Below are positions 17,022 to 56,472 of a stretch of DNA of 64,000 bases, in pieces. Positions within the stretch are counted from its first letter, which is position 1, and each line of letters starts with the position of its first letter. The translations under genes and the position numbers were made by a program. The notes beneath the pieces were generated by a model, which was given only the letters and a program-made list of their open reading frames with translations, was not told the DNA's origin and ran no database searches. Source of the DNA: Sorangium aterium. Lineage in GTDB: Bacteria; Myxococcota_A; Polyangia; Polyangiales; Polyangiaceae. Location of the stretch: positions 1,054,001 to 1,118,000 of the forward strand of contig NZ_JAQNDK010000005.1 of assembly GCF_028368935.1 (NCBI RefSeq). The letters are read 5' to 3'.

Positions 17022-17212
17022 GCCCGGCCCGGCCTCCGAGATCTCCCGCCGGCCCGCGGCGATCACCCGGTGATCGCCAGGCAGCAGCACGCACCGGCCG
17101 ACGCACGCGCGCGGCGCCCTCCCGGCGCGCGATGTCCCCTTCTCCATTGCCCGCCCAGAGAGCCCGCGCGGAGCGCCGCGCGCGCGGCCATGAACAGCAT
17201 CCTGGGTGCACA

Positions 17213-17227
17213 TGCAAAACTGTTGCA
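17213..17227. promoter_or_regulatory. TGCAA-N5-TTGCA dyad upstream of the TonB receptor
   Basis: A perfect inverted repeat, TGCAA (17213-17217) and TTGCA (17223-17227), 31 bp upstream of the receptor start. The downstream TATAGA (17243-17248) could be a -10 element. The 11-mer TGTTGCAAAAG (17221-17231) recurs at 28756-28766 before the salicylate synthase gene. The site is well placed for repression by a metal-sensing regulator. Confidence 0.5.
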
Positions 17228-17258
17228 AAAGGTTCCTGGTTGCTATAGATGTCGCCGC

Positions 17259-28770: not shown

Positions 28771-28891
28771 GGTTATGTAAAAACAACAGGGGCGATGCGG
28801 GGCGACAGAGCGGATGTGCCATCTCCGGCTCTCCTCGAAGAAATCGAGGCGCAGGCAGCCCGGGATTGCGTCACTCACGTGCGGGGCGAGC

Positions 28892-36959: not shown

Positions 36960-37099
36960 CGGCGCCCGCGACGGCGGCGCCCCGCCCGCGAGATCGGGCG
37001 ACGGCGCGCCGCCGGAGCCGCGCGCGGGAGAGCGCCTCGCCGGTGAGTTCATCCTCTGATGTGACGCTTGTCCTCAACAAGCTACAGGAGCAACCATCC

Positions 37100-40000
37100 A
37101 TGCCCGTTGCCGGGATCATCGAAGAGCTGAAGACGCTGGGTGTCGATCTGTGGACGGAATCGGGGCAGCTCCGGTTCCGTGCGCCCAAAGGTTTGCTCAC
37201 GGAAGACAAGATGACGGTGCTGCGCACGCACAAGGCGCAGATCATCGATTTTCTGGCAGCGAACCAGGGGGTGGTCGTCGCCGCGGACGAGCAGGCGCGT
37301 CATGAGCCGTTCCCGCTCACCGACGTGCAGACGGCCTACCTGCTGGGGCGCCAGAGCTCCTTCGGTTACGGCGGCGTCGCCTGCCACGGGTACCTGGAGG
37401 TGACGTATCCAGAGCTCGACCCCGCGCGCCTCTCCGACGCCTGGAACCTGCTGATCGAGCGGCATGAGATGCTGCGCGCCGTGATCGAGCAGGACGGCTA
37501 CCAGCGCGTCCTGCCCACGGTACCTCGGTACCACATCCAGTCGACGGACCTCCGCGGCGCGTCCGCCGCCGAGGTGGAGCGCGCGCTCCGCGGGATCCGC
37601 GCCGAGATGGACCACCGGATGTACGAGACCACCGTATGGCCGCTGTTCGAGCTGCGGCATACCCGCACCAGCGGCGGCGACGTGGTGCACTTCTCGCTGG
37701 ACTCGCTGATCGCCGACTGGGCGAGCGCCGGGATCTTCTTCGAGGAGCTCGATCTCATCCTCGCCGGTCGCAGCGACGAGCTGCGACCGCTGGACCTCCG
37801 CTTTCGCGATTACATCTTCGCAGAGCGGCGGCTGCGCGAGACCGGGCGTTACCAGCGTGACCGCCAGTACTGGCTCGCGCGCGTCAACGATCTGCCCGCC
37901 GCGCCCGAGCTGCCGATGCTTCCATCGGCCGCGGAAGCTGGACCCGTGCGCTTCCGCCGCTACCACAGCCGCCTGTCCGCCGAGCGCTGGGAGCGCCTCC
38001 GGCAGCGGGCCGGCGAGCGAGGGCTCACGGCCTCGATCGCCGTGCTGGGCGCCTATGCGGCGGTGCTCCAGCGCTGGAGCCGTCGTCAACGGTTCAGCCT
38101 CAACCTCACGCTGCTCAACCGTCTGCCGCTGCACCCGCACGTCGACCGGATCGTCGGAGACTTCACGTCGGTCAGCCTCATGGACGTGCAGGCGGCGTCC
38201 GGGCGCAGCTTCAAGGAATGGGCTGCGCGGCTCGGCGATCAGATGTTCGCCGATCTCGACCACCGGCTGTTCACGGGGGTCGAGGTGCTGCGCGAGGTGA
38301 CCCGCCGGCGCGGGCGGGAGGCCGCGCTGATGCCGGTCGTCTTCACCAGCGCCATCGGACTCGGCTCGCGGCGACGGCCCAGCAGCGGGCGGCGCTTCGG
38401 CCATGGCGTCACGCAAACCCCGCAGGTCTACCTCGATTGCCAGGTCATGGATGACGCGGACGGGCTCGAGGTCAACTGGGACGTGCGTCAGGGCATCTTC
38501 CCGGACGGCCTCATCGACGACATGTTCGGCGCGCTGCTGCGGCTACTGGAGGATCTCGCGGAGCGCTCCGAGGCGTGGGAGGCCGTCGAGCCTGTCGCGT
38601 TGCCCGGATGGCAGATGCAGGAGCGCGAGCGCGTCAATCAGACCAGCTGTCCGCTGCCAGACTCCCTCTTGCACCGAGGGTTCCTGGAGCAGGCCGCCCG
38701 CGACCCCGGAGCGGTGGCGGTGATCGGCCATGCGGGCAGCTTGACGTACCGCGACCTCGCGATGAGGGCGGCGTCGGTCGCGCAGGCGCTGCGAGACGGC
38801 GGCTGTACCGCGGGCGACCGGGTCGCCGTCGTCATGAACAAGGGGATCGAGCAGGTCGTCGCGGTGCTGGGCGTGCTGCTCGCCGGAGGGACCTATCTGC
38901 CGCTGGACGCCACGCAGCCACGTCTGCGCATCGAGAAGGTGCTGTCGAACGCGGCGGTGCGACAGGTCCTGACCCAGTCGTGGATCTCCGCGGCGGCCAA
39001 GCTGCCGGACGGCCTGCGCGTGATCGATGTGGACACGCAGGCGCCTGCGCAGAGCTTCCCCGAAGCTCCGACGGGCGACCCCGACGCGCTGGCGTACGTG
39101 ATCTACACCTCCGGCTCCACGGGCGACCCGAAGGGGGTCATGATCACCCACCGAGCGGCGCTGAACACGATCGACGACATCAACCGTCGCTTCGGGGTGA
39201 CCGGTTCGGACCGGGTGCTGGGCCTCGCCCAGCTTGGCTTCGACCTGTCCGTGTACGACATCTTCGGAACCCTCGCCCTCGGCGGGACGCTCGTGCTCCC
39301 GGATCCCGACCGTGGCGCCGATCCCTCCCACTGGGCGGACCTCCTCGTGAAGCACGAGGTGACCCTGTGGAACTCCGTGCCTGCGCAGCTTCAGATGCTG
39401 GCGAGCTACCTGCAGACAGAGCCTGTCGCGATTCGCTCGTTGCGCATGGCGCTGCTGTCCGGGGACTGGATCCCCGTCACGCTGCCCGACCAGATCCGCC
39501 GGTTCATTCCTGAGCTGACGCTCATCGGGCTCGGGGGCGCGACCGAGGCGGCCATCTGGTCGAATTACCATCGCATCGAGCGGGTCGATCCGGCGTGGAC
39601 GAGCATCCCCTACGGGATCCCGCTCGCCAACCAGGGCTTCCGCGTCCTCGACGAGTCGCTCCGCGACGCGCCGGTGTGGGTCGCTGCAGAGCTGTACATC
39701 ACCGGGCACGGCCTCGCAGCGGGGTACCTGGGCGATCCGGAGCTCACGGCAGCGCGCTTCTTCAACCACCCCGTCGATGGCCAGCGCCTCTACAGGACCG
39801 GAGATCTCGGGCGCTATCTCCCCGGCGGATCCATCGAGTTCCTCGGCCGCGAGGACAGCCAGGTCAAGATTCGCGGGCACCGGATCGAGCTCGGCGAGAT
39901 CGAGGCCGCGCTGCTCGCGCATCCGGCGGTAGGCGCCGCGGCGGCCGTGGTGGCCGGCAAGGACCTCACGGATCGCGCGCTGCTCGGCTTCGTCGAGCTC

Positions 40001-42625
40001 GCGCGGCGCGGCGCGCCCACGGACGATGATCTGGCGACGTCGCAGGCCCGTCTGGTGTCTGCGGCGCGGCAGTTCGCCGACAAGGAGGTCAGCGGCGTGA
40101 CCGCGGCCCAGGTGACCGAGGCGATTCGAGCGCTTCACGACGCCTCGTTCGCGTCCATGGTGAACGCGTTTGCCGAGCGCGGGCTCTTCGCCGGTCCGCG
40201 CGACGCGCACTCGGCCGAGGAGATCCTGCGCGAGGCGCGCGTTCACGACCGCCATCACTGGCTCGTTCGCCGCTGGCTGGGGCTCCTGGCGGAGGCTGGA
40301 TGGCTCACGTACCATGAGGAGAGCCGTCGTTATGCGCAGCGCAGGGCCGCCGACGCGACGGCGGTCCACGACGCCTGGCGGCGGTTCGAGGAGCTGGCGA
40401 CGTCGTCCGGGCTGTGTACGCCCGAGTTCGTTCAGTACCACAGAGCGCACGTGGAGCGGCTGCACGCCTTGCTCGAGAACCAGCAGAACCCGTTCGAGCT
40501 GCTGTTTCCGCAAGGGAAGCACGACGTGGCGCTCTCGGTGTACCGCGATGACGCGATCGCGCGTTACAACAACCACGCGGTCGCGGCGCTGCTGTACCGG
40601 ATCGCCGCCGCGCATACGGACGGCGCCCCCCTGCGGGTGCTCGAGATCGGCGCCGGCACGGGCGCGACCAGCGGCGTGGTCATCCCGATGCTCGACGGCC
40701 ATGACGTCGATTATCTGTTCACGGACCTGACAGCCTTCTTCCTGGCCGATGCGCGCGAGCGGTTCCGGGAGCGCCCCTGGGTCCGATTCGGACAGCTCGA
40801 CCTGAACGAGGACTACCGCGCCCAGGGCCTGCTGCCGAACTCCGTCGACGTCGTGCTGTGCGCCGGAATGCTGAACAGCACCCGCAACGTCGAAGCTGCG
40901 GTGGCGGCCGCGGTGGAGCTGCTCGGGCCATCGGGATGGCTCGTGTTCACCGAGCCTACCGCCGATCACCCGCACGTCCTGCTCACCCAGGGTTTCATGA
41001 TGGACCCCGCGGGCGCAGACCGGGAACGCGGCGCCACCAAGTTCCTGTCCACCCAGCAATGGCAAGGCCTGATAGCGAAGAGCGGCGGTGAGCTGGTGCT
41101 CTGCCTGCCGGACGATGACCATCCGATGGCGGCGTATGGCATGCACATGTTCGCTGCGCGCTTCAAGACCGACCGGGCCCGGGTCAGGACCGACGAGCTC
41201 ACGAGCTTCCTCGGGCAGCGGCTGCCAGCGCACATGGTGCCTGCTCATCTGCAGGTCGTCGACCGGCTGCCGCTCACGGCGAACGGCAAGGTCAACCGCA
41301 AGGCGCTCGCTGCTCTTCGGCCCGCGGCGTTCATCGACAGCGCCGGGAAGGAGGCCGACGCGACGCTGGACGAGCTGGAGGGTCGGCTGTGTGCGCTCTG
41401 GGCGAGCGCGCTCGGCATCGCGCGGATTGGCAAGGATGAGAACTTCTACGATCGCGGCGCCGATTCGCTGATCCTCGCCAGGGTGGCAGGTCGACTGCGC
41501 GAGGAGGTGCCGGAGGCTGCGCCGTTCGCCTACGACACGCTCCTGCGGCAGATGCTCAACGAGCCAACGGTCGACGCGCTCGCGCGCGCGTTGCGCAGGC
41601 AAGAAGGCGCAGCGCACGCGCCGAGCGCGGAGGCGTCCGCCAGCGGAGGTAAGACCGCGCAGATCGCGCAGCGCCGGGAGGGCAGCAACTCGTTGATCCT
41701 CTCGTTCGGCGGCGGGGACGGGCCGGCGCGTGTGATGTTCCACGCGGCGCTGGGCACCATGGATTACTTCCAGCACCTGGGGCGGGCGCTCGCCGCTCAG
41801 AATCTGGGGCCTGTCCTGGGCTTCGCTGTCGCCGACCCCGAGCGGTACCTCGCGATCCCCCCGAAGGAGCTCGTCGCGCGCGTGTCCGACGATTACGCGC
41901 AGCGGCTCATCGATGAAGGCTTCACGCGGTTTCAGCTCATCGGCTACTGCCTTGGCGGGCTGCTCGCGACCGAGGTGGCCAGGCGGCTGCTCGAGCGCGG
42001 CATGTCGGTCGACCTGGCGCTTGTCGACAGCATTCCGATGTTTATCGAGACCGACGAGGAGCTCGCGTTCGAGGCGATCTTCGCCCCGAATTTGAACCTG
42101 GATCCGGTGAAGGCCGTCTTCGGCGACGACGTCGACAGCGCCGACGTGTACCGGGCCATCGAGAAGCTGATGGTCGAGTACGATCGCAAGATACCGGCCG
42201 GCGCAATGGCCAGGCTCGGCGGGGACCCCGGGCTGGAATCGGTCGCCGCCGCGGTGCGCAGGCAGTCCGCGCGCAGTCAGGACGAGCGTCTGGCCAGCTA
42301 TGCGAAGGCGGCGGCCGCTCAGGCCGGGGTGCCCGTCGGACCCGAGCTCATCCCGGCGCTGTTCCGGACCTGCAGGCACAGCATGCGCGCCGCGCGCTTC
42401 GATCCCGAGCCTTACGTCGGCGATATGACGTTCCTGCGGTGCGACGAGGAGCAATCCTTCGGCATCACCGCAGGCGTCGGGCATTTGACGGCGCCGTTCT
42501 GGGAAGGCGTCTGCCTCGGCGAGTTCAAGCTGATCGACGTTCCCGGCAACCATTTCAGCGTCATCGAGCCGCCGCATGTGAATGTCGTGGCCGAGCACCT
42601 CGCGGCATCGTTGCGCAACACATGA
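37100..42625 (+). CDS. NRPS 2: TubC-Cy-A(MT)-PCP-TE
   Basis: An 1841-residue enzyme from ATG 37100, which has AGGAG nine bases upstream. A TubC docking domain (about 1-55, GIIEELKTLGVDLWTESG) is followed by a Cy domain (about 69-490, DSLIAD at 201-206). An adenylation domain (about 520-970) has YTSGSTGDPKG and the Cys code DLYNLSLIWK. A methyltransferase is inserted before A9-A10 (about 975-1370, SAM motif LEIGAGTGAT near 1180), as in PchF. The A domain resumes to NGKVNRKAL. PCP Ser1456 lies in GADSLILARV (not GGDSL). The thioesterase (about 1525-1841) has GYCLGG with Cys1617 where Ser is usual and a late GNHFSVIE His. It adds, cyclises and methylates the last Cys and releases the product. 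Confidence 0.94.
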   Translation: MPVAGIIEELKTLGVDLWTESGQLRFRAPKGLLTEDKMTVLRTHKAQIIDFLAANQGVVVAADEQARHEPFPLTDVQTAYLLGRQSSFGYGGVACHGYLEVTYPELDPARLSDAWNLLIERHEMLRAVIEQDGYQRVLPTVPRYHIQSTDLRGASAAEVERALRGIRAEMDHRMYETTVWPLFELRHTRTSGGDVVHFSLDSLIADWASAGIFFEELDLILAGRSDELRPLDLRFRDYIFAERRLRETGRYQRDRQYWLARVNDLPAAPELPMLPSAAEAGPVRFRRYHSRLSAERWERLRQRAGERGLTASIAVLGAYAAVLQRWSRRQRFSLNLTLLNRLPLHPHVDRIVGDFTSVSLMDVQAASGRSFKEWAARLGDQMFADLDHRLFTGVEVLREVTRRRGREAALMPVVFTSAIGLGSRRRPSSGRRFGHGVTQTPQVYLDCQVMDDADGLEVNWDVRQGIFPDGLIDDMFGALLRLLEDLAERSEAWEAVEPVALPGWQMQERERVNQTSCPLPDSLLHRGFLEQAARDPGAVAVIGHAGSLTYRDLAMRAASVAQALRDGGCTAGDRVAVVMNKGIEQVVAVLGVLLAGGTYLPLDATQPRLRIEKVLSNAAVRQVLTQSWISAAAKLPDGLRVIDVDTQAPAQSFPEAPTGDPDALAYVIYTSGSTGDPKGVMITHRAALNTIDDINRRFGVTGSDRVLGLAQLGFDLSVYDIFGTLALGGTLVLPDPDRGADPSHWADLLVKHEVTLWNSVPAQLQMLASYLQTEPVAIRSLRMALLSGDWIPVTLPDQIRRFIPELTLIGLGGATEAAIWSNYHRIERVDPAWTSIPYGIPLANQGFRVLDESLRDAPVWVAAELYITGHGLAAGYLGDPELTAARFFNHPVDGQRLYRTGDLGRYLPGGSIEFLGREDSQVKIRGHRIELGEIEAALLAHPAVGAAAAVVAGKDLTDRALLGFVELARRGAPTDDDLATSQARLVSAARQFADKEVSGVTAAQVTEAIRALHDASFASMVNAFAERGLFAGPRDAHSAEEILREARVHDRHHWLVRRWLGLLAEAGWLTYHEESRRYAQRRAADATAVHDAWRRFEELATSSGLCTPEFVQYHRAHVERLHALLENQQNPFELLFPQGKHDVALSVYRDDAIARYNNHAVAALLYRIAAAHTDGAPLRVLEIGAGTGATSGVVIPMLDGHDVDYLFTDLTAFFLADARERFRERPWVRFGQLDLNEDYRAQGLLPNSVDVVLCAGMLNSTRNVEAAVAAAVELLGPSGWLVFTEPTADHPHVLLTQGFMMDPAGADRERGATKFLSTQQWQGLIAKSGGELVLCLPDDDHPMAAYGMHMFAARFKTDRARVRTDELTSFLGQRLPAHMVPAHLQVVDRLPLTANGKVNRKALAALRPAAFIDSAGKEADATLDELEGRLCALWASALGIARIGKDENFYDRGADSLILARVAGRLREEVPEAAPFAYDTLLRQMLNEPTVDALARALRRQEGAAHAPSAEASASGGKTAQIAQRREGSNSLILSFGGGDGPARVMFHAALGTMDYFQHLGRALAAQNLGPVLGFAVADPERYLAIPPKELVARVSDDYAQRLIDEGFTRFQLIGYCLGGLLATEVARRLLERGMSVDLALVDSIPMFIETDEELAFEAIFAPNLNLDPVKAVFGDDVDSADVYRAIEKLMVEYDRKIPAGAMARLGGDPGLESVAAAVRRQSARSQDERLASYAKAAAAQAGVPVGPELIPALFRTCRHSMRAARFDPEPYVGDMTFLRCDEEQSFGITAGVGHLTAPFWEGVCLGEFKLIDVPGNHFSVIEPPHVNVVAEHLAASLRNT

Positions 42626-44403: not shown

Positions 44404-46139
44404 TCCGGCAACTGACCAAGATCTTGGGACCGCAGCACGCAAGGGCGCTGCACGTCTATTTCGGCTGGCTGGTCGTCTACTCCGTCGTTCAGGGGGTGGC
44501 GATGGCGTTCCTCGTCCCGGTCCTCAAGGCGCTGCTCAGCGGGGACCTGGGCGAGGCGCTGCGCTGGCTGCTCCTCTTGGCCGCGATCGTCGCGGTGACG
44601 TGCGTTGCCCGTTACCAGCAGACGATGAAGGGCTTTGCGCTCGCGCTGGTCGTCCTGACCACGCTGCACGACCGGCTCGGCAGCCACGTCGCCCGCCTGC
44701 CTATCGGCTGGTTCTCCTCGGAGAAGGTCGGCCGTCTCTCACGGAGCGCGACGGGCGGCACCATGATGGTCACCAACGTGTTTGCCCACCTCCTGACCCC
44801 GGTGGTGAGCGGCATCCTGACGCCCGCGACGATCGCCGTCGCCATGCTGTTCTTCGACTGGCAGCTCGGCCTGACGGCCATCGCCTGCACGCCGCTGATC
44901 TACCTGACGCACCGCTGGTCGTCGGCGTGGATCGGCCGCACCGAGGAGCAGGTCGACGCCGCGGGGGCGCTCGCCAGCAACCGGGTCGTCGAGTTCGCGC
45001 GCAACCAGCAGGTGCTGCGCGCCTTCGGTCGGGCCACGGGGGGGTATGCGCCGCTGGAGGAGGCGATCGATGCGCAGCGCGCCGCGGGCGGGTCGATGCT
45101 GCGTCAGACCTTCCCCAGGTTGCTCGCGGGCGGGCTGTCCGTGCAGCTCGCGTTCGCCGCGCTGATCGCCGTCGGCGTGGTGCGCGCGCTCGATCGGTCG
45201 ATCGATCCCATCGAGCTCATCGCGCTGCTGGCGCTGGCCGCCAGGTTCGTGGGGCCGCTGGCCGAGGCCGCGGGGCGGAGCGGGCTCTTGCGGATGGCAG
45301 GCAACGATCTGGAGCGGCTGTCCGCCATCTTCGATGAGGCGCCGCTCCCCGAGCCGGAGCGGTCCAGGCCCGTCGCGGCGCCGGGGGAGATCGAGTTCTC
45401 CGATGCCCTGTTCGGCTATCAGCCGGGCGCTCCGGTGCTCCGTGACGTGTCTTTCCGGATAGCGCCGAAGACGATGACGGCGATCATCGGCGCATCCGGC
45501 TCCGGGAAGACCACGATAACACGGCTGATCGCGCGGTTCTTCGATGTCGACGCGGGCTCGGTGCGGGTGGGCGGCGTGGATGTCCGCGAGCTCTCCACGG
45601 AAGACCTGATGGCGCAGCTGTCGCTGGTCATGCAGGACGTCTATCTGTTCGATGACACGCTGGAGGCGAACATCCGGGTGGGCCGGCTGGACGCCTCGGA
45701 CGCGGAGGTGCGCGAGGCCGCCCGCCTGGCTGGCGTGGACGAGATCATCGAGCGCCTCCCGCAGGGCCTGAACACCCGCGTCGGCGAGGGCGGAGCGTCG
45801 CTGTCCGGCGGAGAGCGACAGCGGGTGTCGGTCGCCCGAGCCGTGCTCAAGAACGCTCCGATCGTGCTGCTGGACGAGGCGACGGCGGCGCTCGACCCGG
45901 AGAACGAGCGCTACATCCAGGGCGCGATGCGGACACTGATGAGCCGGTCGACCCTGCTGGTCATCGCGCACCGGCTGCCGACCATCGTGTCCGCGGATCA
46001 GATCCTCGTGCTCGACGGCGGCCGCATCGTCGAAGTGGGGACGCATCAGGAGCTCATGGCGCGCAACGGGCGCTACACGGCGTTCTGGAACGAGCGCCGC
46101 CGCGCCCACGGATGGCGGCTGGTGGAGGCTGCAGGATGA
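44400..46139 (+). CDS. ABC transporter, exporter-fold half (YbtQ-like)
   Basis: A 579-residue partner of the previous protein with the same layout. Six helices occupy about 15-310; Walker A is IIGASGSGKTTITRL, the signature is LSGGERQRVSVARAVL, and Walker B is IVLLDEATAALDPE. Both halves keep intact ATP sites. It overlaps both neighbours by 4 bp (ATGA). Expected in the inner membrane, moving the metallophore or its metal complex. Confidence 0.9.
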   Translation: MIRQLTKILGPQHARALHVYFGWLVVYSVVQGVAMAFLVPVLKALLSGDLGEALRWLLLLAAIVAVTCVARYQQTMKGFALALVVLTTLHDRLGSHVARLPIGWFSSEKVGRLSRSATGGTMMVTNVFAHLLTPVVSGILTPATIAVAMLFFDWQLGLTAIACTPLIYLTHRWSSAWIGRTEEQVDAAGALASNRVVEFARNQQVLRAFGRATGGYAPLEEAIDAQRAAGGSMLRQTFPRLLAGGLSVQLAFAALIAVGVVRALDRSIDPIELIALLALAARFVGPLAEAAGRSGLLRMAGNDLERLSAIFDEAPLPEPERSRPVAAPGEIEFSDALFGYQPGAPVLRDVSFRIAPKTMTAIIGASGSGKTTITRLIARFFDVDAGSVRVGGVDVRELSTEDLMAQLSLVMQDVYLFDDTLEANIRVGRLDASDAEVREAARLAGVDEIIERLPQGLNTRVGEGGASLSGGERQRVSVARAVLKNAPIVLLDEATAALDPENERYIQGAMRTLMSRSTLLVIAHRLPTIVSADQILVLDGGRIVEVGTHQELMARNGRYTAFWNERRRAHGWRLVEAAG

Positions 46140-47245
46140 CGATCGGCATCTTGGGAGGTTATGGCGACGTCGGCGCGCAAGCGGCCCGGCGGCTCCTGTC
46201 GCTCGGCCTCAGGCCGCTGCGGATCGGCGGGCGCAACCTCGAAGCGGCCCGCCGCTTCGCGAGTGAGCTGTCCGCGGGAGCGGTCGAGCACCAGGCGGTC
46301 GATTTTCGGGACGACGCATCGTTGCGTCGCTTCGTGGGTGGTTGTCGGATCGTGCTCAACTGCGCCGGTCCATCCCACGCCATCGCGGACCGCGCGGCGA
46401 GGGCAGCCGTGGACGCAGGCGCCGACTACGTGGACGCCGCCGGCGACGATGCGCTGTACGCGCTCCTGGACGACGAGGAGTACCGCACCCGCCGGCGCGT
46501 GGCCGTGCTCTCGGCGGGGCTGCAGCCTGGCCTTACCGCGCTCTTGCTGCGATGGGCGGCGCAGCGGGCTTTCAGCCAGGTTCATGGCCTGCGCAGCCAT
46601 TTCGGCGTGCTGGACCGCTTCACCGAGGTCGCAGCGGACGACTACCTCCAGGCGGCCACGGACGGGGTGAGCGAGCCGCTCGCGGCATGGCGAGAGGGAC
46701 GTCGCTCCGGGGTGCTGACCCGGACGCGCAACGTGGAAGTCCCGTTCTTCCCCGGCCCGGCGACCTTGCTGCCTTACCTCAACACCGAGGGGGAGCGGCT
46801 CGCGGCGTCGCTCCGGCTCGTTCGAGGAGACTGGTACACGGTCCTCACGGGCCAGCACATCCTCACGGCCTTCGATCGCGTGCGCAGCCTCGAACGCCGC
46901 GAGGCGGTCGCGGCGTTATGCCGGGCCAGCTTGCTCGACCTCGCTGGACGGGAGCCTCACGTCCTTCTGGTCGCGCAGCTCGACGGACTGCGAGACGGCG
47001 CCCCGGTCACGCGCACGCTGGTCGTGCGCGGACGGCGCAACGCCGAGCTCACAGGGATGATGGCCGCGCTCGCCACGCTGGCGGTGGACCAGGGCCAGGT
47101 GCCCGCAGGGCGCCACTTCGCCGCGGCTGCGCTCGAACCCCTGTCGACGGTCGGTCGCCTTCGCGAGAGCGGCGCGGTGATCGCGCTCGATCTGCTGGAT
47201 ACGTCGATCGAAGCGCTCGGCGCTACCGAGGAGGGCTCCCTGTGA
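46136..47245 (+). CDS. Saccharopine-dehydrogenase-like reductase (PchK-like)
   Basis: A 369-residue NAD(P)-dependent protein. The N-terminal Rossmann motif is MTIGILGGYGDVGAQAARRL, followed by PLRIGGRNLEAARRFASEL and VLNCAGPSHAIADRAARAA, typical of the saccharopine dehydrogenase group. In enantio-pyochelin producers a protein of this group (PchK) reduces the thiazoline to a thiazolidine in place of PchG. Its position between transporter and PchG-type genes supports the same role here. It overlaps the genes on both sides by 4 bp. It is a second reductase type in a cluster that also has PchG-type proteins. Confidence 0.82.
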   Translation: MTIGILGGYGDVGAQAARRLLSLGLRPLRIGGRNLEAARRFASELSAGAVEHQAVDFRDDASLRRFVGGCRIVLNCAGPSHAIADRAARAAVDAGADYVDAAGDDALYALLDDEEYRTRRRVAVLSAGLQPGLTALLLRWAAQRAFSQVHGLRSHFGVLDRFTEVAADDYLQAATDGVSEPLAAWREGRRSGVLTRTRNVEVPFFPGPATLLPYLNTEGERLAASLRLVRGDWYTVLTGQHILTAFDRVRSLERREAVAALCRASLLDLAGREPHVLLVAQLDGLRDGAPVTRTLVVRGRRNAELTGMMAALATLAVDQGQVPAGRHFAAAALEPLSTVGRLRESGAVIALDLLDTSIEALGATEEGSL

Positions 47246-49404
47246 CCGCCGGCATCCCTCTTGTGCTGTGCGGCGCCGGGTTCGGTCCTCTGCACCTGGC
47301 CGCGCTCCAGCGTTTGAACGGGCGCTTTCGTCTCATTGGCCAGCTCGCCGACGACAGCGACGGCGCCCGGAGGTTCGCCGATCAGGCCAGGATGGCGCTC
47401 TGGACCCGGCCGGATCAGGCACCCCTCGGCGCCGGCGTGAGCTGCTGGGTATCGGCGACCGGGCACGGCGTGCCGGTGACCGAGCGCGCTGTCGAGCTCC
47501 TGGGGCGCGGCAGCGCCGTGCTGGCGGAGGCGCCGCTCGAGCACGATGAGCTCGCCGCCTGCCTGCGGCAAGCGCGCCTTGGCCGAGCCGCCTTCCGGGT
47601 GGCAGCGGTCGCCTCCGCCACGCCGGCATCCCGGCGGTTCCTCGGCGCAGCGCAGGCGTTGCGCGCGCGCACGCCGATCGGGTACGTCGCTGCGACCTGC
47701 ACGAGAGCGTCGGTCCAGGCGCTGCTCCGCCTCCTGGGAGACGCGCTCGGCGCCCTGCGCCCCTGGCAGGTCCGTGAGCCGACGCCTCTCGGGAGCGGGC
47801 TCGTCGTGCTCGGAGGCAGCCTCGCGGGTGTTCCCATCGTCCTGCGCGTGCGCAACGAGGTGTCGTCAGAGGCGCAGATGGTCATCGAGATCGCCATGGG
47901 CAGCGACGCCGGCGAGCTGAGGTTGACCGGGGTTCACGGGGACGTCCTCTGGACCGCACGCTCCGCGGGGTCTGGCGTGCTGCTCGGCGGAACGGACGCG
48001 CCGGCCGAGCGCGAGACGATGAGCTGGCTGCGCGCGACCCGCGGTGAGCTGGCGGCGTTCGCCAACGCGGTGGAGAGCCCAGGCGCAGCCGTCAGCGAGG
48101 CTCAGGTTCAGCTCACGTTGTGCCGCCTCCGGCACGACATCCTCGCCGCGCTCGGCTCGGCCACGGCGCGCCCTGACGCGGAGGCCGTCCCTGCCGCGGA
48201 TCTGGCCGCGGCCGCGGTGGAGGCCGCCGCCGATGACGCCGAGGGTGAGGCTCACCGCGTGCCGACGGGCGATGAGACACACGAGGCTGGCCTGAGGCTC
48301 ACTCGGCTGCTGGAACCAGCGCCGGGGAGAGATCCCCTGGCGCACCTCCCGGGGGCGATGCAGCGACTCGAGGCGATCAGCCTGCGGGCCCTGGGGGAGC
48401 TGCTCGTGGCGAGCGGCGCTGTGCATCCCGGAGGTGAAGCGCGCACCGCGGAGGAGATCGTCTGCGCGCTGGGCGCGGCGCCGCGACACGCATGGCTCGT
48501 CCGGCGGTGGCTCGCCGCGCTGTGCGACCACGGTGTGCTCAGCAACGTGGGGGATAAGTACGTGTGGCGACGGGCCCTGCGGGACGCCGGCGCGGCCGCC
48601 GACCTGCCCGACGCGTATGCCTCGCTCGGCTTCCCGCCGGCGATGGCGGAAGTCCACCAGGCTGCTCTGCTCCGCCTGCACGCGCTCGTGCGCGACGAGC
48701 TCTCGATTCAGCAGCTCCTGTTTCGCGAGCGGCAGGACCTCTCCGCCATCGCCGCCTACCAGGACAACGTCTTCACCGCTTACCTCAGCGCCGCCGGCGC
48801 TCACCTCGTGCGCCGCTGCGCGGAGCTGCGGCACCGGCCGCTGCGCGTGCTCGAGCTCGGCGGAGGCGCCGGCCTCACTACGACAGCCGCGCTGCGGGCC
48901 CTCGACGGCGCGCCGGTCGACTATCTGTTCACGGACATCGCGCGCGCGTTCACGGCCGCGGCGCAGGAGCGGTTCGGCCGTCATCGCGGTGTGCGCACTG
49001 CCGTGCTCGACATCAACGTCGATTTCACCGCGCAAGGGGTGGAGCCGCACGCAGCGGACGTCGTGCTCGCGGGCAATGTCCTCCACAACGCCGCGCATAC
49101 GGGCCGGACGCTGCGCCGCATCCGGCGCGCGCTCGCCCCCGGCGGATGGCTCATCTTCACGGACTCCACACGAGAGAACTGCGCGATCCTCACGGCGATG
49201 CAATTCCTGCTGTCTCCCCCGGCCGGCTCGCCGCTGCTGGGCAGCGAGGACCGGCGCGCCGGGACCGATCAGGTGTTCGTCGACGCGCCTGGCTGGAATG
49301 AGGAGCTCCTGGCCGCAGCCTTCGTGCCGCGGTTCGTCCTTCCTTCGCTCGAATCACCGCTGGCCGTGGCAGGCCAGCACCTGTTCTTCGCTACCGCCGG
49401 CTGA
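47242..49404 (+). CDS. PchG-like reductase domain fused to an NRPS-type methyltransferase
   Basis: A 720-residue fusion starting at GTG 47242 (GTGA overlap with the previous gene). Residues about 1-320 follow the thiazolinyl imide reductase fold (LVLCGAGFGPLHLAALQRL). The active-site segments differ: EAPLEH stands where PchG-type enzymes have EHP, and ASATPASRRF stands where they have a Tyr-Pro segment. Residues about 370-720 match the methyltransferase embedded in NRPS 2, including the helical lead-in (HAWLVRRWLAALCDHGVL) and SAM motif LELGGGAGLTT near 536. There is no adenylation domain. The reductase half is probably a non-catalytic binding module and the methyltransferase acts in trans on a carrier-bound intermediate. 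Confidence 0.85.
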   Translation: MTAGIPLVLCGAGFGPLHLAALQRLNGRFRLIGQLADDSDGARRFADQARMALWTRPDQAPLGAGVSCWVSATGHGVPVTERAVELLGRGSAVLAEAPLEHDELAACLRQARLGRAAFRVAAVASATPASRRFLGAAQALRARTPIGYVAATCTRASVQALLRLLGDALGALRPWQVREPTPLGSGLVVLGGSLAGVPIVLRVRNEVSSEAQMVIEIAMGSDAGELRLTGVHGDVLWTARSAGSGVLLGGTDAPAERETMSWLRATRGELAAFANAVESPGAAVSEAQVQLTLCRLRHDILAALGSATARPDAEAVPAADLAAAAVEAAADDAEGEAHRVPTGDETHEAGLRLTRLLEPAPGRDPLAHLPGAMQRLEAISLRALGELLVASGAVHPGGEARTAEEIVCALGAAPRHAWLVRRWLAALCDHGVLSNVGDKYVWRRALRDAGAAADLPDAYASLGFPPAMAEVHQAALLRLHALVRDELSIQQLLFRERQDLSAIAAYQDNVFTAYLSAAGAHLVRRCAELRHRPLRVLELGGGAGLTTTAALRALDGAPVDYLFTDIARAFTAAAQERFGRHRGVRTAVLDINVDFTAQGVEPHAADVVLAGNVLHNAAHTGRTLRRIRRALAPGGWLIFTDSTRENCAILTAMQFLLSPPAGSPLLGSEDRRAGTDQVFVDAPGWNEELLAAAFVPRFVLPSLESPLAVAGQHLFFATAG

Positions 49405-49424: not shown

Positions 49425-51728
49425 ATGACAGTGAGACAGATCATCGATGGGCTGGAGCGCCTCGGGAGCCGAGCGGCGCTGGTGTCGAGCGGGCGAGCGT
49501 GGACCGGAGCAGAGGTCCTCGACCGCACGTACCGCGCCGTCACGGCGCTGCGCCAGCGCGGAGCCGTCGCGGGCCGCTCGCTGAGCTGGAGCGCCGGAGA
49601 CGCACCGCAGGCCCTGCCCGTCCGGCTGGCCGCGATGCTGCTCGGCGCGCGGTTCTCCGCCGAGCAGCCAGCGAGCGACGGCGGCGATGTCCTGAGGATC
49701 ACCGACGCCGACCTGCCCGCGCTCGACGGGGCGAGCGCCTGCGAGCCCCGCCTGGCGGACGACGCGCCGTTCTCCGTGGTTCGCGGATCGTTCGTGTGGT
49801 CGAGGGCCGTGTTCTGCGAGTCGGTGGCTGCCCTGCGCGACGCGCTCGGCCCTTCGCCTGCGCGCACGGCGGTGCTCTCGCCGCTGGCCGGGTTCGGCGG
49901 GGATGCGGTGTTCGCGAGCTGGAGCGCCGGCGCCGCCGTCCACCCTCACGTGGTGGACGCGAGCGCCGCGAGCCCGGCCAGGGCCCTTTCGTTCCTCGAG
50001 CGAGCGGCCCCGGACTGCGCGATCGTGTCAGCGGCGCTGCTGCGCAGCCTCCTGGCTCATCCGGCGGCCGCGCTCGCCGATCTCGGGGCGCTGCGGCGCA
50101 TCGTGTACGACGCCGGCGCAGGCGCCGGTGGAGCGCTGTCCGCCGAGTCGTCTGCGGCCGTGCGGCGCGTCTTCGGCGCAGAGCTCGTGGACAGGATCGC
50201 CGGTGAAGCCGGGCTCGTACCGGTGGAGCGCGAGCTGCGCAGAGCCGAGCAAGAAGCGGCGCGCATCGCGGAGCTCGTGATGAGCCAGCCGAGCGTGGCG
50301 GCGGCGGCGGCGATCCCCTCCGACGGCGACGGCTGGGCGATCTTCGCCGTCCCCGCGAAGCGTGCCGGCGACGACGCCGACGGCGACGCGAGCGGACAGC
50401 GCCTGATCGCCAGCGTAACCGCCGCGCTCGACGCCGAGCTCGCCGGGACCGACGTGAACCGGGCGATCGCGGCCGTCGAGCGGCTGGGACGAACAGCGCT
50501 GCTGTCGATGCTCAACGCGCTGGGCCGCAGCGGCCTTTTCACCGACACGGCCGCCGCGCACACCGTGGACGAGGTGCTCGCGCGGGCGCGGGTCGCCGCC
50601 GCGCATCGGCCGCTCCTCCGCCGCTGGCTCAGGGTGCTCACGGAGCAGAAGCTGCTGCGCCGGGACGGAGACCTGCTGAGCGCCGTGGGCCCGATCGGCG
50701 ACCACTCGGACGCCGCGCTGGCGCGCGCATGGGACGAGCTGAAGGGCGAGTGGCTGGCCACGGTCGGCGCGACCGGCACGATCGACTACGCGGTCCGCAA
50801 TTCGGACCGTTTGCCTGACCTGATCTCCGGCGCGGTGCGGGCCGTCCACCTCTTGTTCCCGGAAGGGCGCACCGACCTCGCCAGGGCCTTGTATCGCGAG
50901 AGCGTTGCGGCCCGGTACCAACACCGCGCCGTCAGCCTCCTGGTGAGCAGGATTGCCAAGGAATGGCCCGGGCAGCGGCCGGTCCGGCTGCTCGAGGTCG
51001 GCGCCGGCACGGGGGCGACCTCCGAGTCGCTCTTGCCGGAGCTCTCGGGCGCCGAGGTCGACTACCTCTACACCGACGTCTCCAGGTACTTCCTTGATCA
51101 GGCTGCCCCGCGGCTCGCCGGACACCGGTGCGTGCGCTTCGGCCTCTACGACATCAACGTCGCGCCGAGAGACCAGGGCTTCGTCCCGAACTCGTTCGAT
51201 GTGATCATCGGCGGGGGCGTGCTCAACGCCGCGCGGAACACGGACGCCTCCCTCCGCTGGCTCAACGAGCTGCTCGGCCCCGGCGGCTGGCTCGTCCTGA
51301 CCGAGCCCACGGTCGAAGAGTTCTGGGTGATGGCGTCCCAGGCCTTCATGCTGGACGACGCCAGCGACGGCAGGGCCGAGACGGAGTCGACCTTCCTCTC
51401 GCTGCCTCAGTGGAACGCAGCGCTGGACGGCGCGGGCCTGCGGCGCGTCCTCGGGCTGCCCCGGGACGGCCACCCGCTGGAGCGGCTCGGCCATCGGGTG
51501 TTCGCAGCCCGGACCAAGATGGATCGGACGCTGCTGACCTCGGAGCGCCTCTCCGAGCATCTCGGCGAGAGCCTGGGAGCCGCCGCCAGGATCGAGATCG
51601 TGGATGAACTGCCGCTCGCCGCAGGCGGCGCCCTCGACCGCGAGCGGCTGCGGGACTGGGCCGCGCGCCGCCGGCGCTTCGATTCCCGCCCGCTTCCCGC
51701 GGCGGCATCACAAGGACGAACGCAATGA
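49425..51728 (+). CDS. Degenerate adenylation domain with embedded methyltransferase (trans-acting)
   Basis: A 767-residue protein laid out like an A(MT) unit with no carrier or condensation domain. The N-terminal half (about 1-310) keeps the shape of an adenylation domain (SGRAWTGAEVLDRTYRAV; ARALSFLERAAPDCAIVSAA) but has no TSGSTG-type ATP loop and no YRTGD. The methyltransferase (about 340-690) is intact: PLLRRWLRVLTEQKLL lead-in and SAM motif LEVGAGTGATSES near 522. The last 60 residues mimic A9-A10, but the catalytic NGK reads GGA (LPLAAGGALDRERL). It cannot activate an amino acid and is probably a methyltransferase on a dead scaffold. It overlaps the P450 gene by 4 bp. Confidence 0.85.
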   Translation: MTVRQIIDGLERLGSRAALVSSGRAWTGAEVLDRTYRAVTALRQRGAVAGRSLSWSAGDAPQALPVRLAAMLLGARFSAEQPASDGGDVLRITDADLPALDGASACEPRLADDAPFSVVRGSFVWSRAVFCESVAALRDALGPSPARTAVLSPLAGFGGDAVFASWSAGAAVHPHVVDASAASPARALSFLERAAPDCAIVSAALLRSLLAHPAAALADLGALRRIVYDAGAGAGGALSAESSAAVRRVFGAELVDRIAGEAGLVPVERELRRAEQEAARIAELVMSQPSVAAAAAIPSDGDGWAIFAVPAKRAGDDADGDASGQRLIASVTAALDAELAGTDVNRAIAAVERLGRTALLSMLNALGRSGLFTDTAAAHTVDEVLARARVAAAHRPLLRRWLRVLTEQKLLRRDGDLLSAVGPIGDHSDAALARAWDELKGEWLATVGATGTIDYAVRNSDRLPDLISGAVRAVHLLFPEGRTDLARALYRESVAARYQHRAVSLLVSRIAKEWPGQRPVRLLEVGAGTGATSESLLPELSGAEVDYLYTDVSRYFLDQAAPRLAGHRCVRFGLYDINVAPRDQGFVPNSFDVIIGGGVLNAARNTDASLRWLNELLGPGGWLVLTEPTVEEFWVMASQAFMLDDASDGRAETESTFLSLPQWNAALDGAGLRRVLGLPRDGHPLERLGHRVFAARTKMDRTLLTSERLSEHLGESLGAAARIEIVDELPLAAGGALDRERLRDWAARRRRFDSRPLPAAASQGRTQ

Positions 51729-52915
51729 CTACCGCGACGAATCCCCCCATCCAGTATCCGTTCAACCTCTTCGACGGCATCGCGCTCGCCTCCGCGTACT
51801 CCCGCGCTCAGCAAACGCCGGGGCTGCTCAAGGTCAAGCTGCCTTATGGCGAGCCGGCGTGGCTCGCGACCCGCTACGAGGACGTCCGCTTCGTGCTGTC
51901 CGACCGGAGGTTCAGCCGCGAGGAGGCCACGAAGCGCGCGGACGCCCCGAGGGCGCTCCCGCGCATCGCCGGCGGGATCGTCATGATGGACCCGCCCGAG
52001 CTGACCCGCATCCGCAACCTGGTCACCCAGGCGTTCACCAACCGGCGCGTGGAGCAGCTGCGCCCGCATGTCCGCGATCTCGCCAACGAGCTGATCGACA
52101 GGATGGTCGCCAAAGGTCCCCCTGCCGATCTCGTGCGGGACTACGCGCTGCCGATCCCGATGTCCGTGATCTGCGAGCTCCTGGGCGTTCCGGTGGCGGA
52201 TCAGTCCAAGTTCAAGGAGTGGAACGACTCCCTGCTCTCGACCAACACGCAGACCGCCGAGCAGACGCAGCGGAACCTCGGCGAGCTGTCCCAGTACATC
52301 ATGGGGCTGGTCCGCCTGCGCCGGGCCGAGCCGGGCGACGACCTGATGAGCGCGCTCATCGAGGCCCACGATGTGGACGACCGTCTGAACGAGCGCGAGC
52401 TGGTCCAGCTCTGCATCGCCATCCTGATCGCGGGGTACGAGGCCACCTCCTCGCAGATCCCGAACTTCATCTACACGCTCCTGACCCATCAGGAGCAGTT
52501 CGCGCGCCTCAAGTCGGATCCTGGCCTCGTGGCGCCGGCGGTCGAGGAGCTGCTCCGCTTCGTGCCGGTCGCGTCCGCCGCGATGTTTCCGCACTACGCC
52601 ACCGAGGACGTCCAGGTGGGCGATACGCTGGTGCGCGCGGGGGAGCCCGTGTTTGCGTCGGTCGGCGCGGCCAACCACGACCCTCGCAAGTTCTCCGATC
52701 CACACCGGCTCGACTTCGATCGAGACGCGCGGGCGCACTTCGCGTTTGGCTGTGGAATGCATTATTGCATCGGCGCGTCGCTGGCCCGGGTCGAGCTCCA
52801 GGAAGCGCTGAGAGCGCTCGTGACCCGCTTGCCGGATCTGCGCCTCCACGCCGACGTCCAGTGGAAGACCGCGACGTTCTTCCGCGGGCCGCTCACGATG
52901 CAGGTGATCTGGTGA
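51725..52915 (+). CDS. Cytochrome P450
   Basis: A 396-residue soluble bacterial P450 of class I type. The I-helix oxygen motif is AGYEATSSQ, the ExxR lies in VEELLRFVP, and the heme loop is FGCGMHYCIGASLARVEL with Cys348 as ligand. It needs external ferredoxin and reductase; none is encoded nearby. Within the cluster it may oxidise a thiazoline to a thiazole, hydroxylate the aryl ring or a carbon, or act on a methyl group. The coelibactin cluster, as I recall it, also has a P450. It overlaps neighbouring genes on both sides by 4 bp. Confidence 0.92.
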   Translation: MTTATNPPIQYPFNLFDGIALASAYSRAQQTPGLLKVKLPYGEPAWLATRYEDVRFVLSDRRFSREEATKRADAPRALPRIAGGIVMMDPPELTRIRNLVTQAFTNRRVEQLRPHVRDLANELIDRMVAKGPPADLVRDYALPIPMSVICELLGVPVADQSKFKEWNDSLLSTNTQTAEQTQRNLGELSQYIMGLVRLRRAEPGDDLMSALIEAHDVDDRLNERELVQLCIAILIAGYEATSSQIPNFIYTLLTHQEQFARLKSDPGLVAPAVEELLRFVPVASAAMFPHYATEDVQVGDTLVRAGEPVFASVGAANHDPRKFSDPHRLDFDRDARAHFAFGCGMHYCIGASLARVELQEALRALVTRLPDLRLHADVQWKTATFFRGPLTMQVIW

Positions 52916-54087: not shown

Positions 54088-54819
54088 ATGGCGACTTCTT
54101 GCAGCCACGTATTGGTATGGGTGCGCGACATTCATCAAGCCGTGCGCGACTACAGAGAGCTCGGGTTCAAGGTCGATTACGCGACGCCCGAGAGGAAGGC
54201 CCAGCACGCGCACATCTGGTTCACGGAAGGCCCCATCGTCGAGCTGCTCACGACGCCGCGCAGCGCGAGGTGGTTCAAATGGCCGATCGAGCTGATGGCG
54301 GGGCGCGGCTCGGGCCGGCGGATGATCCGCTGGTCCGAGGGCGGTGAGGGCTTCTGCGACGTGGCGGTCGTGACGGACACACACGCTCTCGACCGTGAGC
54401 TCGCCGCGCTGCGGGAGGCAGGGGTCCCCGTCGGCAGAGCCATCGGGTGGCGACGGACGAAGCCCGATGGCCAGGAGATCCGCTTCAAGTTTGCCTATCC
54501 GGCGAACGATCGTCTCCCGTTCATCGTGACCCCGTACGACCCGCCTCAACATCCAAGGGAGAACCGCCATCCGAACGGGGCCAGAAGGCTCAGCCGGGTG
54601 CGCATGGGTGTCCGCGCCGAGCATCGAGAGGCCGTGCGCCGGATCGTCGGTGACGACCCGACGTTCGCGCTCGAGCCCGCCGAGGTGACGGGGGTCCGCG
54701 CCATCGAGATCGCCGGCTTGACCGCCGAGCTCGACCCGACCCTCCTGCACGGCGCGGCCGTGCTGCCCGCCCGCCCGAACGCCGACCCGAGCCGCGCGCA
54801 CCGAAGCGCAGGACAGTGA
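54088..54819 (+). CDS. VOC/glyoxalase-like protein
   Basis: A 243-residue protein with a vicinal-oxygen-chelate fold. The first module has SHVLVWVRDIHQAVRDYREL and HIWFTEGPIVELL, and the second starts near CDVAVVTDTHALDRELAAL. The PNDRLPFIVTPYDPP stretch resembles Glyoxalase_3-type proteins. VOC members are metal-dependent enzymes or sequestering resistance proteins. In this cluster it could bind the metallophore, protect against it, or tailor it. It lies 30 bp after the reductase gene, still within the operon. Confidence 0.75.
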   Translation: MATSCSHVLVWVRDIHQAVRDYRELGFKVDYATPERKAQHAHIWFTEGPIVELLTTPRSARWFKWPIELMAGRGSGRRMIRWSEGGEGFCDVAVVTDTHALDRELAALREAGVPVGRAIGWRRTKPDGQEIRFKFAYPANDRLPFIVTPYDPPQHPRENRHPNGARRLSRVRMGVRAEHREAVRRIVGDDPTFALEPAEVTGVRAIEIAGLTAELDPTLLHGAAVLPARPNADPSRAHRSAGQ

Positions 54820-54855: not shown

Positions 54856-56472
54856 ATGTTGAGTGGATGTGTCGATTGGCCCGCTGAATTCGTGGATCGT
54901 TATCGGGCAGCGGGGTACTGGCGAGGCGAGCGCCTCGGAGAGATGCTGCGCACGCGGGCCCGAGCGACGCCGGCGCGCGTGGCCGTCGTCGACGGAGCGC
55001 GTCGCTGGACGTACCACGAGCTCGACGAGCGCGCGGATCGCATGGCCGCGGGGCTGCGCCGGCTCGGCATCGCGGCGGAGCAGCGCGTCCTGGTTCAGCT
55101 GCCCAACATCGCCGAGTTTCTGCCTCTGTGCTTTGCGCTGTTCCGGATCGGGGCCATCCCGGTGCTGGCGCTGCCGGCGCATCGAGAGACGGAGATCGTG
55201 CATCTGGCAGAGCTCTCCCAGGCGGTCGCGTACGTGATCGCCGACGTGCATGTCGGCTTCGATTACCGGGCGCTCGCCCGTTCGGTATGCAAGCGGGTGG
55301 CGAGCCTCCGGCATGTCCTCGTGGTGGGCGATGCAGAGGAGTTCGTGCCGCTCTCCGAGGTGGATGCGCCGGCGGAGATCATGGCCGGGCCGGACGCGCG
55401 CGACGTGGCCCTGCTCTTGCTGTCGGGAGGCACGACCGGCGCTCCCAAGCTGATCCCGCGCACCCACGACGACTATGTCTGCAATGTCCGTCTCAGCGCC
55501 GATGTGACAGCCCTCGACGCGAGGACCCGGTACCTGGTGAGCCTCCCCATCGCGCACAACTTCGCCCTGGGGTGTCCAGGCGCCCTCGGCACCCTGTACG
55601 CCGGCGGTACGGTGGTGTTCTGCAAGGACCCGAGCCCCGAGGCGGCGTTTCGACTGATCGAGCAGGAGAAGATCACGGTGACCGCCCTCATCCCGCCGCT
55701 CGTCCTGCTGTGGCTCGAGGCGGCGGAGTGGGTGCAGGCCGATCTGAGCAGCTTGAGGTGGATCCAGGCGGGGGGCGCTCGCCTCAAGGCCGAGACGGCG
55801 GCGCGCGTACGACCCGTCCTCGGCTGCGGGCTGCAGCAGGTCTACGGCATGGCCGAAGGGCTGCTCAACTTCACGCGGCTCGACGACGGCGAGTCCGCCG
55901 TGATCAACACGCAAGGCCGGCCGGTCGCCGAGGACGACGAGGTGAGGATCGTCGACGCCTCGGATGTCGAGGTGGCGGACGGCGAGGTCGGTGAGCTGCA
56001 GGTCCGAGGGCCCTATACAATCCGAGGATATTATCGCGCGGAGGAGTACAATCGTCGGGCGTTCACCGCCGACGGCTTCTATCGGAGCGGGGATCTGGTG
56101 CGGCGGCTCGCCAGCGGACATCTGGTGGTGGAAGGCCGGAGCAAGGACGTGATCAACCGGGGAGGGGAGAAGGTCCCGGTCGAGGAGCTCGAGAACTATC
56201 TCATGGCTCACCCGGCGATCCGTGACGTCGCCATCGTCGGCGTCCCGGACGCCACCATGGGGGAGCGCACCTGCGCCTGCATCATCGCGCGCGGCGAGGC
56301 GCCCACGCTCGCCGAGGTGAACGCCTATCTCAGCCGTCTGGGGGTGGCCGCGTTCAAGCTGCCCGATCGTTTGAAGGTCCTGGAGAGCTTTCCGCAGACG
56401 AGCGTGGGCAAGGTCAACAAGCGGGCCCTGGCGAGTCAGGTCTGTGGCGCCTCGCCCGCCATGTCCACCTAG
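54856..56472 (+). CDS. Salicylate-AMP ligase (PchD/YbtE/DhbE family)
   Basis: A 538-residue aryl-acid adenylating enzyme that activates salicylate and loads it on the aryl carrier of NRPS 1. ATP loop: LLSGGTTGAPKLIPRTH. Pocket: PIAHNFALGCPGALG with H234, N235 and C240, and GMAEGLLNFTRLDD with L337. In the published code Ser240/Val337 means 2,3-dihydroxybenzoate and Cys240/Leu337 means salicylate, so salicylate is predicted. YRSGDLVRR and SVGKVNKRAL (catalytic Lys) are intact. GGAG ribosome-site-like bases precede the ATG. Consistent with the salicylate synthase at 28892. Confidence 0.94.
   Translation: MLSGCVDWPAEFVDRYRAAGYWRGERLGEMLRTRARATPARVAVVDGARRWTYHELDERADRMAAGLRRLGIAAEQRVLVQLPNIAEFLPLCFALFRIGAIPVLALPAHRETEIVHLAELSQAVAYVIADVHVGFDYRALARSVCKRVASLRHVLVVGDAEEFVPLSEVDAPAEIMAGPDARDVALLLLSGGTTGAPKLIPRTHDDYVCNVRLSADVTALDARTRYLVSLPIAHNFALGCPGALGTLYAGGTVVFCKDPSPEAAFRLIEQEKITVTALIPPLVLLWLEAAEWVQADLSSLRWIQAGGARLKAETAARVRPVLGCGLQQVYGMAEGLLNFTRLDDGESAVINTQGRPVAEDDEVRIVDASDVEVADGEVGELQVRGPYTIRGYYRAEEYNRRAFTADGFYRSGDLVRRLASGHLVVEGRSKDVINRGGEKVPVEELENYLMAHPAIRDVAIVGVPDATMGERTCACIIARGEAPTLAEVNAYLSRLGVAAFKLPDRLKVLESFPQTSVGKVNKRALASQVCGASPAMST

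Follow-up and report, generated by a model that had tools for sequence, protein, structure and literature searches.

A degenerate adenylation-domain shell around the methyltransferase of SrbG, a putative trans N-methyltransferase of a sorangibactin-type cluster in Sorangium aterium

The A2(MT) unit of the pyochelin synthetase PchF is an adenylation (A) domain with an N-methyltransferase (MT) placed between motifs a8 and a9 (PMC11355689, Table 2). Sorangibactin contains two N-methyl-thiazolidines and N-methyls only (PMC10127202). SrbF and SrbG of its cluster were named just “proposed methyltransferases”, with reactions unassigned, in the 2023 paper of Gao et al. (PMC10127202), and deletion of srbE/F/G abolishes the product (PMC10127202). 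A heterologous system in Myxococcus xanthus has been published for it, and anthrochelin from Luteibacter is reported to be identical with sorangibactin (PMC11934131). Here we describe a stretch of 64,000 nucleotides from Sorangium aterium (assembly GCF_028368935.1, contig NZ_JAQNDK010000005.1, positions 1,054,001 to 1,118,000 of the forward strand; hereafter the window), which carries a sorangibactin-type (coelibactin-like) siderophore cluster with the open reading frame (ORF) 49425-51728 in the SrbG position. This position of the gene has already been published, while the A-domain shell that surrounds its MT was found here; neither the shell nor its graded loss, nor the reciprocal loss in SrbD, was found in the main texts of the open-licence papers searched.

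Based on sequence data one can assume, with a probability of about 0.7, that SrbG is a trans N-methyltransferase dependent on S-adenosylmethionine (SAM) and derived from an A(MT) unit of the PchF/SrbD type. Since the product has two N-methyl-thiazolidines and SrbD alone carries a cis MT among the nonribosomal peptide synthetases (NRPSs) of the window, SrbG would serve the other thiazolidine. The parts of the protein are the following (window coordinates):

49425..51728, + strand: SrbG-type protein, 767 amino acids (aa), SAM-methyltransferase within a degenerate A-domain shell
49431..49679, + strand: A1-A2 remnant, residues 3-85 (fatty-acyl-CoA synthase match in PDB, alignments)
49851..50192, + strand: A4-A5 remnant, residues 143-256, retained across the trans family (PF00501, alignment)
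50235..50459, + strand: first half of the small A subdomain ahead of the MT, residues 271-345, no A8 signature (weak AMP-binding_C match)
50460..51515, + strand: MT, helical lid and Rossmann core, residues 346-697 (VIA-align, CurJ C-methyltransferase)
51000..51014, + strand: SAM motif I GAGTG, residues 526-530
51225..51227, + strand: Asn601 in GVLNAA, at the site of the PchE epimerase-type His
51303..51305, + strand: Glu627 in TEPT, by motif equal to PchE E1234 (PMC8807600)
51516..51674, + strand: A9-A10 shell tail, residues 698-750 (alignment with SrbD)
51624..51632, + strand: GGA where A10 has NGK, catalytic Lys replaced by Ala736 (alignment with SrbD)

The ORF is uninterrupted from the ATG at 49425, and its product aligns end to end with the orthologue of Sorangium cellulosum So0157-2 at 86% identity. 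An intact MT with GAGTG (residues 526-530), as the original prediction had it, was confirmed by matches to Pfam Methyltransf_12 (E 1.1e-15, exceeding its cut-off) and to the CurJ C-methyltransferase in PDB (E 1.7e-33), with which VIA-align superimposed residues 320-699 at Z 43.1. Across 16 trans SrbG-like proteins no variation was registered at G526, G528, T529 and G530, and Glu627 is invariant in 16/16. The His equivalent to H1204 of PchE-type epimerases is absent, its place being taken by Asn601. SrbG thus combines a GxGxG SAM motif, Asn instead of the epimerase His and a conserved Glu, as expected for an N-methyltransferase of the PchF/SrbD type.

The shell was detected as several collinear matches, each of which is weak alone. 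Residues 4-85 correspond to residues 5-86 of a fatty-acyl-CoA synthase (E 3e-7), and residues 156-255 to positions 217-316 of PF00501 (E 1.7e-5, under the gathering score). Approximately the same 217-316 segment was matched in SrbG, its orthologue and four relatives, always collinear and below gathering (E 1.3e-5 to 0.024). The AMP-binding_C match is weaker, with E 0.008 in SrbG and 6.6e-4 in the So0157-2 orthologue. A chance likeness was excluded, because orthologues and relatives show the collinear matches too. Motif losses were scored by alignment to the intact A(MT) of neighbouring SrbD, and all functional motifs A3, A5, A7, A8 and A10 turned out to be missing or mutated. The TSGSTG loop of A3 is absent; the entire A6-A8 stretch is deleted, including YRTGD and GRxDxQVKIRG (GREDSQVKIRG in SrbD); and the A10 Lys is gone in both orthologues, with GGA in SrbG and GGT in the other. 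The MT nevertheless sits between the two remnant halves of the small subdomain, that is, in the A8/A9 position, though A8 itself is lost. Thus, the claims made from the letters alone, namely an adenylation-like shell around the MT, no ATP loop, no YRTGD and NGK changed to GGA, all hold. The profile comparison proposed with them was run with Pfam and gave Methyltransf_12 above its cut-off and weak matches to PF00501 and AMP-binding_C; A3 or A10 surfacing on a better alignment was also searched for, and neither was recovered. A structural search with the whole SrbG model returned essentially MT folds alone. The fold of the small subdomain is unsettled, because two AlphaFold models disagree on residues 271-345 (predicted local distance difference test scores mostly 67-93 in model 1 and 33-87 in model 2).

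Ratios of nonsynonymous to synonymous substitution rates (omega) were estimated with NG86 counts from a single pair, the two Sorangium orthologues. Residues 1-270 gave 0.25 (95% confidence interval 0.16-0.39), the MT 0.17, the active A core of SrbD 0.11 and the tail of SrbG (residues 698-767) 0.60 (interval 0.26-1.41). Because omega over residues 1-270 is 0.25, the shell of Sorangium is constrained to some sequence even without A motifs and is not free junk. A recent pseudogene was ruled out by the intact ORF, 86% conservation and purifying selection. The shell is probably retained because it serves the MT, SrbF or the carrier protein as a scaffold or docking site. In PchE the inserted domain and the small subdomain are rigidly coupled in their movements (PMC8807600); this would be one possible reason for the retention of such a shell.

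Trans MTs resembling SrbG were found in So0157-2, in two other genomes of Sorangium's family (L168 and L169), in 12 of the 200 sampled Pseudonocardiaceae, in Amycolatopsis decaplanina and on a Kitasatospora plasmid, while in a second actinomycete family none of 251 genomes scored as high as the stand-alone SrbG-like proteins. The plasmid-borne gene (L095:6395-8176) encodes 593 aa with an A4-A5 remnant and is annotated just as a methyltransferase; universal stress proteins are encoded near it, and no NRPS gene is annotated within ~7 kb. Myxobacterial and actinomycete trans proteins form one clade (94/96), which together with SrbD-type cis MTs and Burkholderia PchF constitutes a larger group (95/92; an earlier tree agreed, with 84/88), SrbF-type MTs being placed elsewhere. 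The signature LN is common to PchF, SrbD-type cis MTs and SrbG, and LH stands at the same site in coelibactin-type cis MTs and SrbF; by motif position the His of PchE at this site is the epimerase residue H1204 (PMC8807600). The idea of an NRPS A(MT) unit cut free with methylation alone left is therefore supported by the clustering of the MT with A-inserted MTs (SrbD cis, PchF) and by the correct order of the degenerate A pieces flanking it; the shell, however, is constrained. The separation from the NRPS is old: members of the trans clade, with differing amounts of shell, occur in Pseudonocardiaceae as well as in Sorangium and another genus of the same family. The stand-alone MTs of other actinomycete clusters (L079-L084) grouped in the trees with SrbF and not with SrbG. 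These split-NRPS clusters encode SrbE-like and SrbF-like proteins (in some of them two SrbF-like) beside a thioredoxin-reductase-like protein with CPFCHGW; L079 and L080 have an extra MT ORF, in which by eye an MT lies between small A-subdomain remnants, but it gave no Pfam AMP-binding match and is not claimed here.

The loss of the shell is graded. Sorangium SrbG has the most left, namely A1-A2, A4-A5 and the two small-subdomain halves, the A1-A2 remnant being confined to Sorangium orthologues (Kitasatospora P0004 has a trace at best), whereas in L168, L169 and Pseudonocardiaceae alignments revealed little more than A4-A5. A sample of 28 SrbD-type loci of the 200 Pseudonocardiaceae genomes was retrieved via the Cy-A part of SrbD and not via the MT. 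A cis MT without SrbG was found in 11 of them (in one, L162, the A10 spacing was unreadable), an intact cis MT together with an SrbG-like protein in 9, neither in 5. The remaining 3/28 (L141, L143 and L144) combine a lone SrbG-like protein, whose MT is intact, with an SrbD in which the A domain is intact and the cis MT is a relic of ~115 aa lacking the SAM motif, so that A7 to A10 span 223-235 aa versus 433-502. This class mirrors SrbG: SrbD kept A and lost MT, and the trans protein kept MT and lost A. One may suppose, at roughly even odds, that an interrupted bifunctional A domain was divided by duplication and reciprocal degeneration (A with relic MT in SrbD of these three loci, MT with relic A in the SrbG-like protein), by which a tailoring domain working in cis became a trans enzyme, that of the stages observed the one in Sorangium SrbG is the least eroded and that its shell is now a scaffold or docking module. 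In the same three loci both A domains of SrbC carry inserts, while Sorangium SrbC is uninterrupted; the first insert measures ~60-70 aa, and the second, of ~270 aa, contains a degenerate SAM motif (VVELGGREG in L143 and L144).

All ten biosynthetic genes srbB-srbK are present in the window, E to K being contiguous and in the published order, together with two ABC transporters. Neighbours of SrbG discussed below are:

28814..30280, + strand: SrbB, salicylate synthase (464 bits, cut-off 325)
30333..36959, + strand: SrbC-type NRPS, neither A domain interrupted (118 and 122 aa from A7 to A10), no cis MT
36710..42625, + strand: SrbD-type NRPS, docking, heterocyclization (Cy), A(MT), peptidyl carrier protein (PCP) and thioesterase (TE), A and cis MT intact; TE motif GYCLGG; the true start probably lies downstream of 36710
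46112..47245, + strand: SrbE, saccharopine-dehydrogenase-like reductase (possibly PchK-like)
47242..49404, + strand: SrbF, thiazolinyl-reductase-like N half and MT-fold C half (VLHN, TDST)
51725..52915, + strand: SrbH-type cytochrome P450
52912..54057, + strand: SrbI, thiazolinyl imide reductase (342 bits, cut-off 188.8)
54088..54819, + strand: SrbJ, glyoxalase/VOC protein
54856..56472, + strand: SrbK-type aryl-AMP ligase (best model dihydroxybenzoate-AMP ligase, slightly under cut-off)

GYCLGG in SrbD supplies the Cys nucleophile of the unusual Cys thioesterase motif. The N half of SrbF scored 88 bits against the thiazolinyl-reductase cut-off of 188.8 and is thus sub-threshold. PchK of enantio-pyochelin is saccharopine-dehydrogenase-like (PMC3377617, PMC8150894), and SrbE, which resembles it, may by analogy be a second thiazoline reductase beside SrbI. 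Upstream of the srb-type genes a TonB receptor (17070-20063) matches the model of the myxochelin receptor MxcH (1186 bits, cut-off 925) and is adjoined by a TolQ-like protein that scored below its cut-off.

We infer the following order of events, as well as the reaction and when it takes place, the carrier protein targeted and the role of the shell. An A(MT) unit would have separated from its NRPS, and its MT would have survived the loss of every adenylation motif. SrbG would bind SAM via GAGTG and receive the carrier-bound thiazolidine made on SrbC, the module without cis MT, after the action of a thiazoline reductase; the ring nitrogen would then be methylated, and the chain would pass to SrbD, whose cis MT would methylate the second thiazolidine. 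Judging by the motifs, SrbG should transfer methyl groups, and its shell should form no adenylate.

Several facts weigh against this reading. Shell matches each fall below the Pfam cut-offs; with hhalign the shell aligned weakly to the A domains of SrbD (E 0.028 and E 0.0017) and in inconsistent registers, so the register was taken from Pfam. The fold does not split N- from C-methyltransferases, and the best structural matches are C-methyltransferases. Support for the SrbG/SrbD/PchF grouping is good, yet falls short of overwhelming, and the branch of PchF is long. Decay of the cis MT is restricted to one clade and counts as one event. Finally, the text of PMC10127202 leaves it open whether srbE/F/G were deleted singly or jointly, and assigns no reactions.

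In a less probable alternative SrbG would act on the carrier protein of SrbD, sharing the substrate of the cis MT, or would methylate both thiazolidines instead of the SrbC-bound one. Decay of the SrbD cis MT beside an SrbG-like protein in L141, L143 and L144 looks as though the former were replaced there, but the cis MT has stayed intact in Sorangium, L168 and L169, where SrbC has the sole thiazolidine-forming module that lacks an MT.

It is improbable that SrbF is the trans N-methyltransferase and SrbG its non-catalytic partner or scaffold, although SrbF of the window retains GGGAG. Most Pseudonocardiaceae clusters have the SrbF-type MT fused to the SrbG-type one, which suggests that they act together. 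In L168 and L169, however, where SrbD to SrbK follow in the same order, SrbF is devoid of ~48 residues of the SAM site including motif I, while GxGTG is invariant in 16/16 SrbG-like proteins; moreover, L141, L143 and L144 have an SrbG-like protein and no SrbF. Because the SAM site is deleted in L168 and L169, where NLLHN/NVLHN and TDST are kept, SrbF is probably not a methyltransferase. It keeps the His and the acidic residue of the epimerase dyad, the former being that of PchE-type epimerases, and an epimerase or partner function is possible. The SrbD cis MT and SrbG are intact in L168 and L169 and SrbC has no MT, so that two intact MTs would match two N-methyls, if the product is sorangibactin-like.

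Very little speaks for SrbG being a C-methyltransferase or a PchE-type epimerase: polyketide C-methyltransferases are its top structural matches and the PchE epimerase shares the fold of its MT (PMC8807600), but sorangibactin has N-methyls only, and SrbG combines an intact SAM motif with Asn replacing the catalytic His of PchE, as in PchF. A shell still working as an adenylating or CoA-ligase enzyme with an unusual substrate is next to inconceivable: the A1-A2 piece does match acyl-CoA ligases and is under purifying selection, yet A3, A7, A8 and A10 are all absent and other lineages have fully deleted the A1-A2 and A8-A10 parts.

SrbG as a trans N-methyltransferase offers a candidate assignment for the second N-methylation of sorangibactin. 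Interrupted A domains count among the recognised targets of engineering, and the mobility of their MTs has been unclear; the SrbG family looks like a natural experiment, in which an MT was taken out of its A domain and the lineages show how much of the shell can be deleted.

Compared by position, SrbG of Sorangiineae strain MSr11367 (PMC10127202; GenBank OQ368584) is alike in its place between SrbF and the P450 SrbH, in gene content of the cluster and in the Cys thioesterase; the main text of that paper mentions neither an A shell nor where it came from, and does not say which ring receives the methyl group. In L168 and L169, belonging to the same family as Sorangium, the shell is shorter. TioN A(M)A of thiocoraline (PMC11355689) shares with SrbG an A domain interrupted by a methyltransferase, but it is bifunctional, adenylating and methylating Cys, with M between a2 and a3, whereas A motifs of SrbG are lost. 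In PchE A(E) (PMC8807600) the MT fold also lies between A8 and A9 and packs rigidly on the small A subdomain; PchE epimerises by a His/Glu dyad, while SrbG carries Asn together with an intact SAM motif, and SrbF is closer to the PchE type. PchF A2(MT) has its MT at the same place of the A architecture and the same Asn signature (Burkholderia cenocepacia PchF, L094), and thiazolidine N-methylation is common to both, for SrbG as a proposal. The difference is that PchF, which acts in cis, still has a functional A domain, and SrbG is a separate protein without A motifs.
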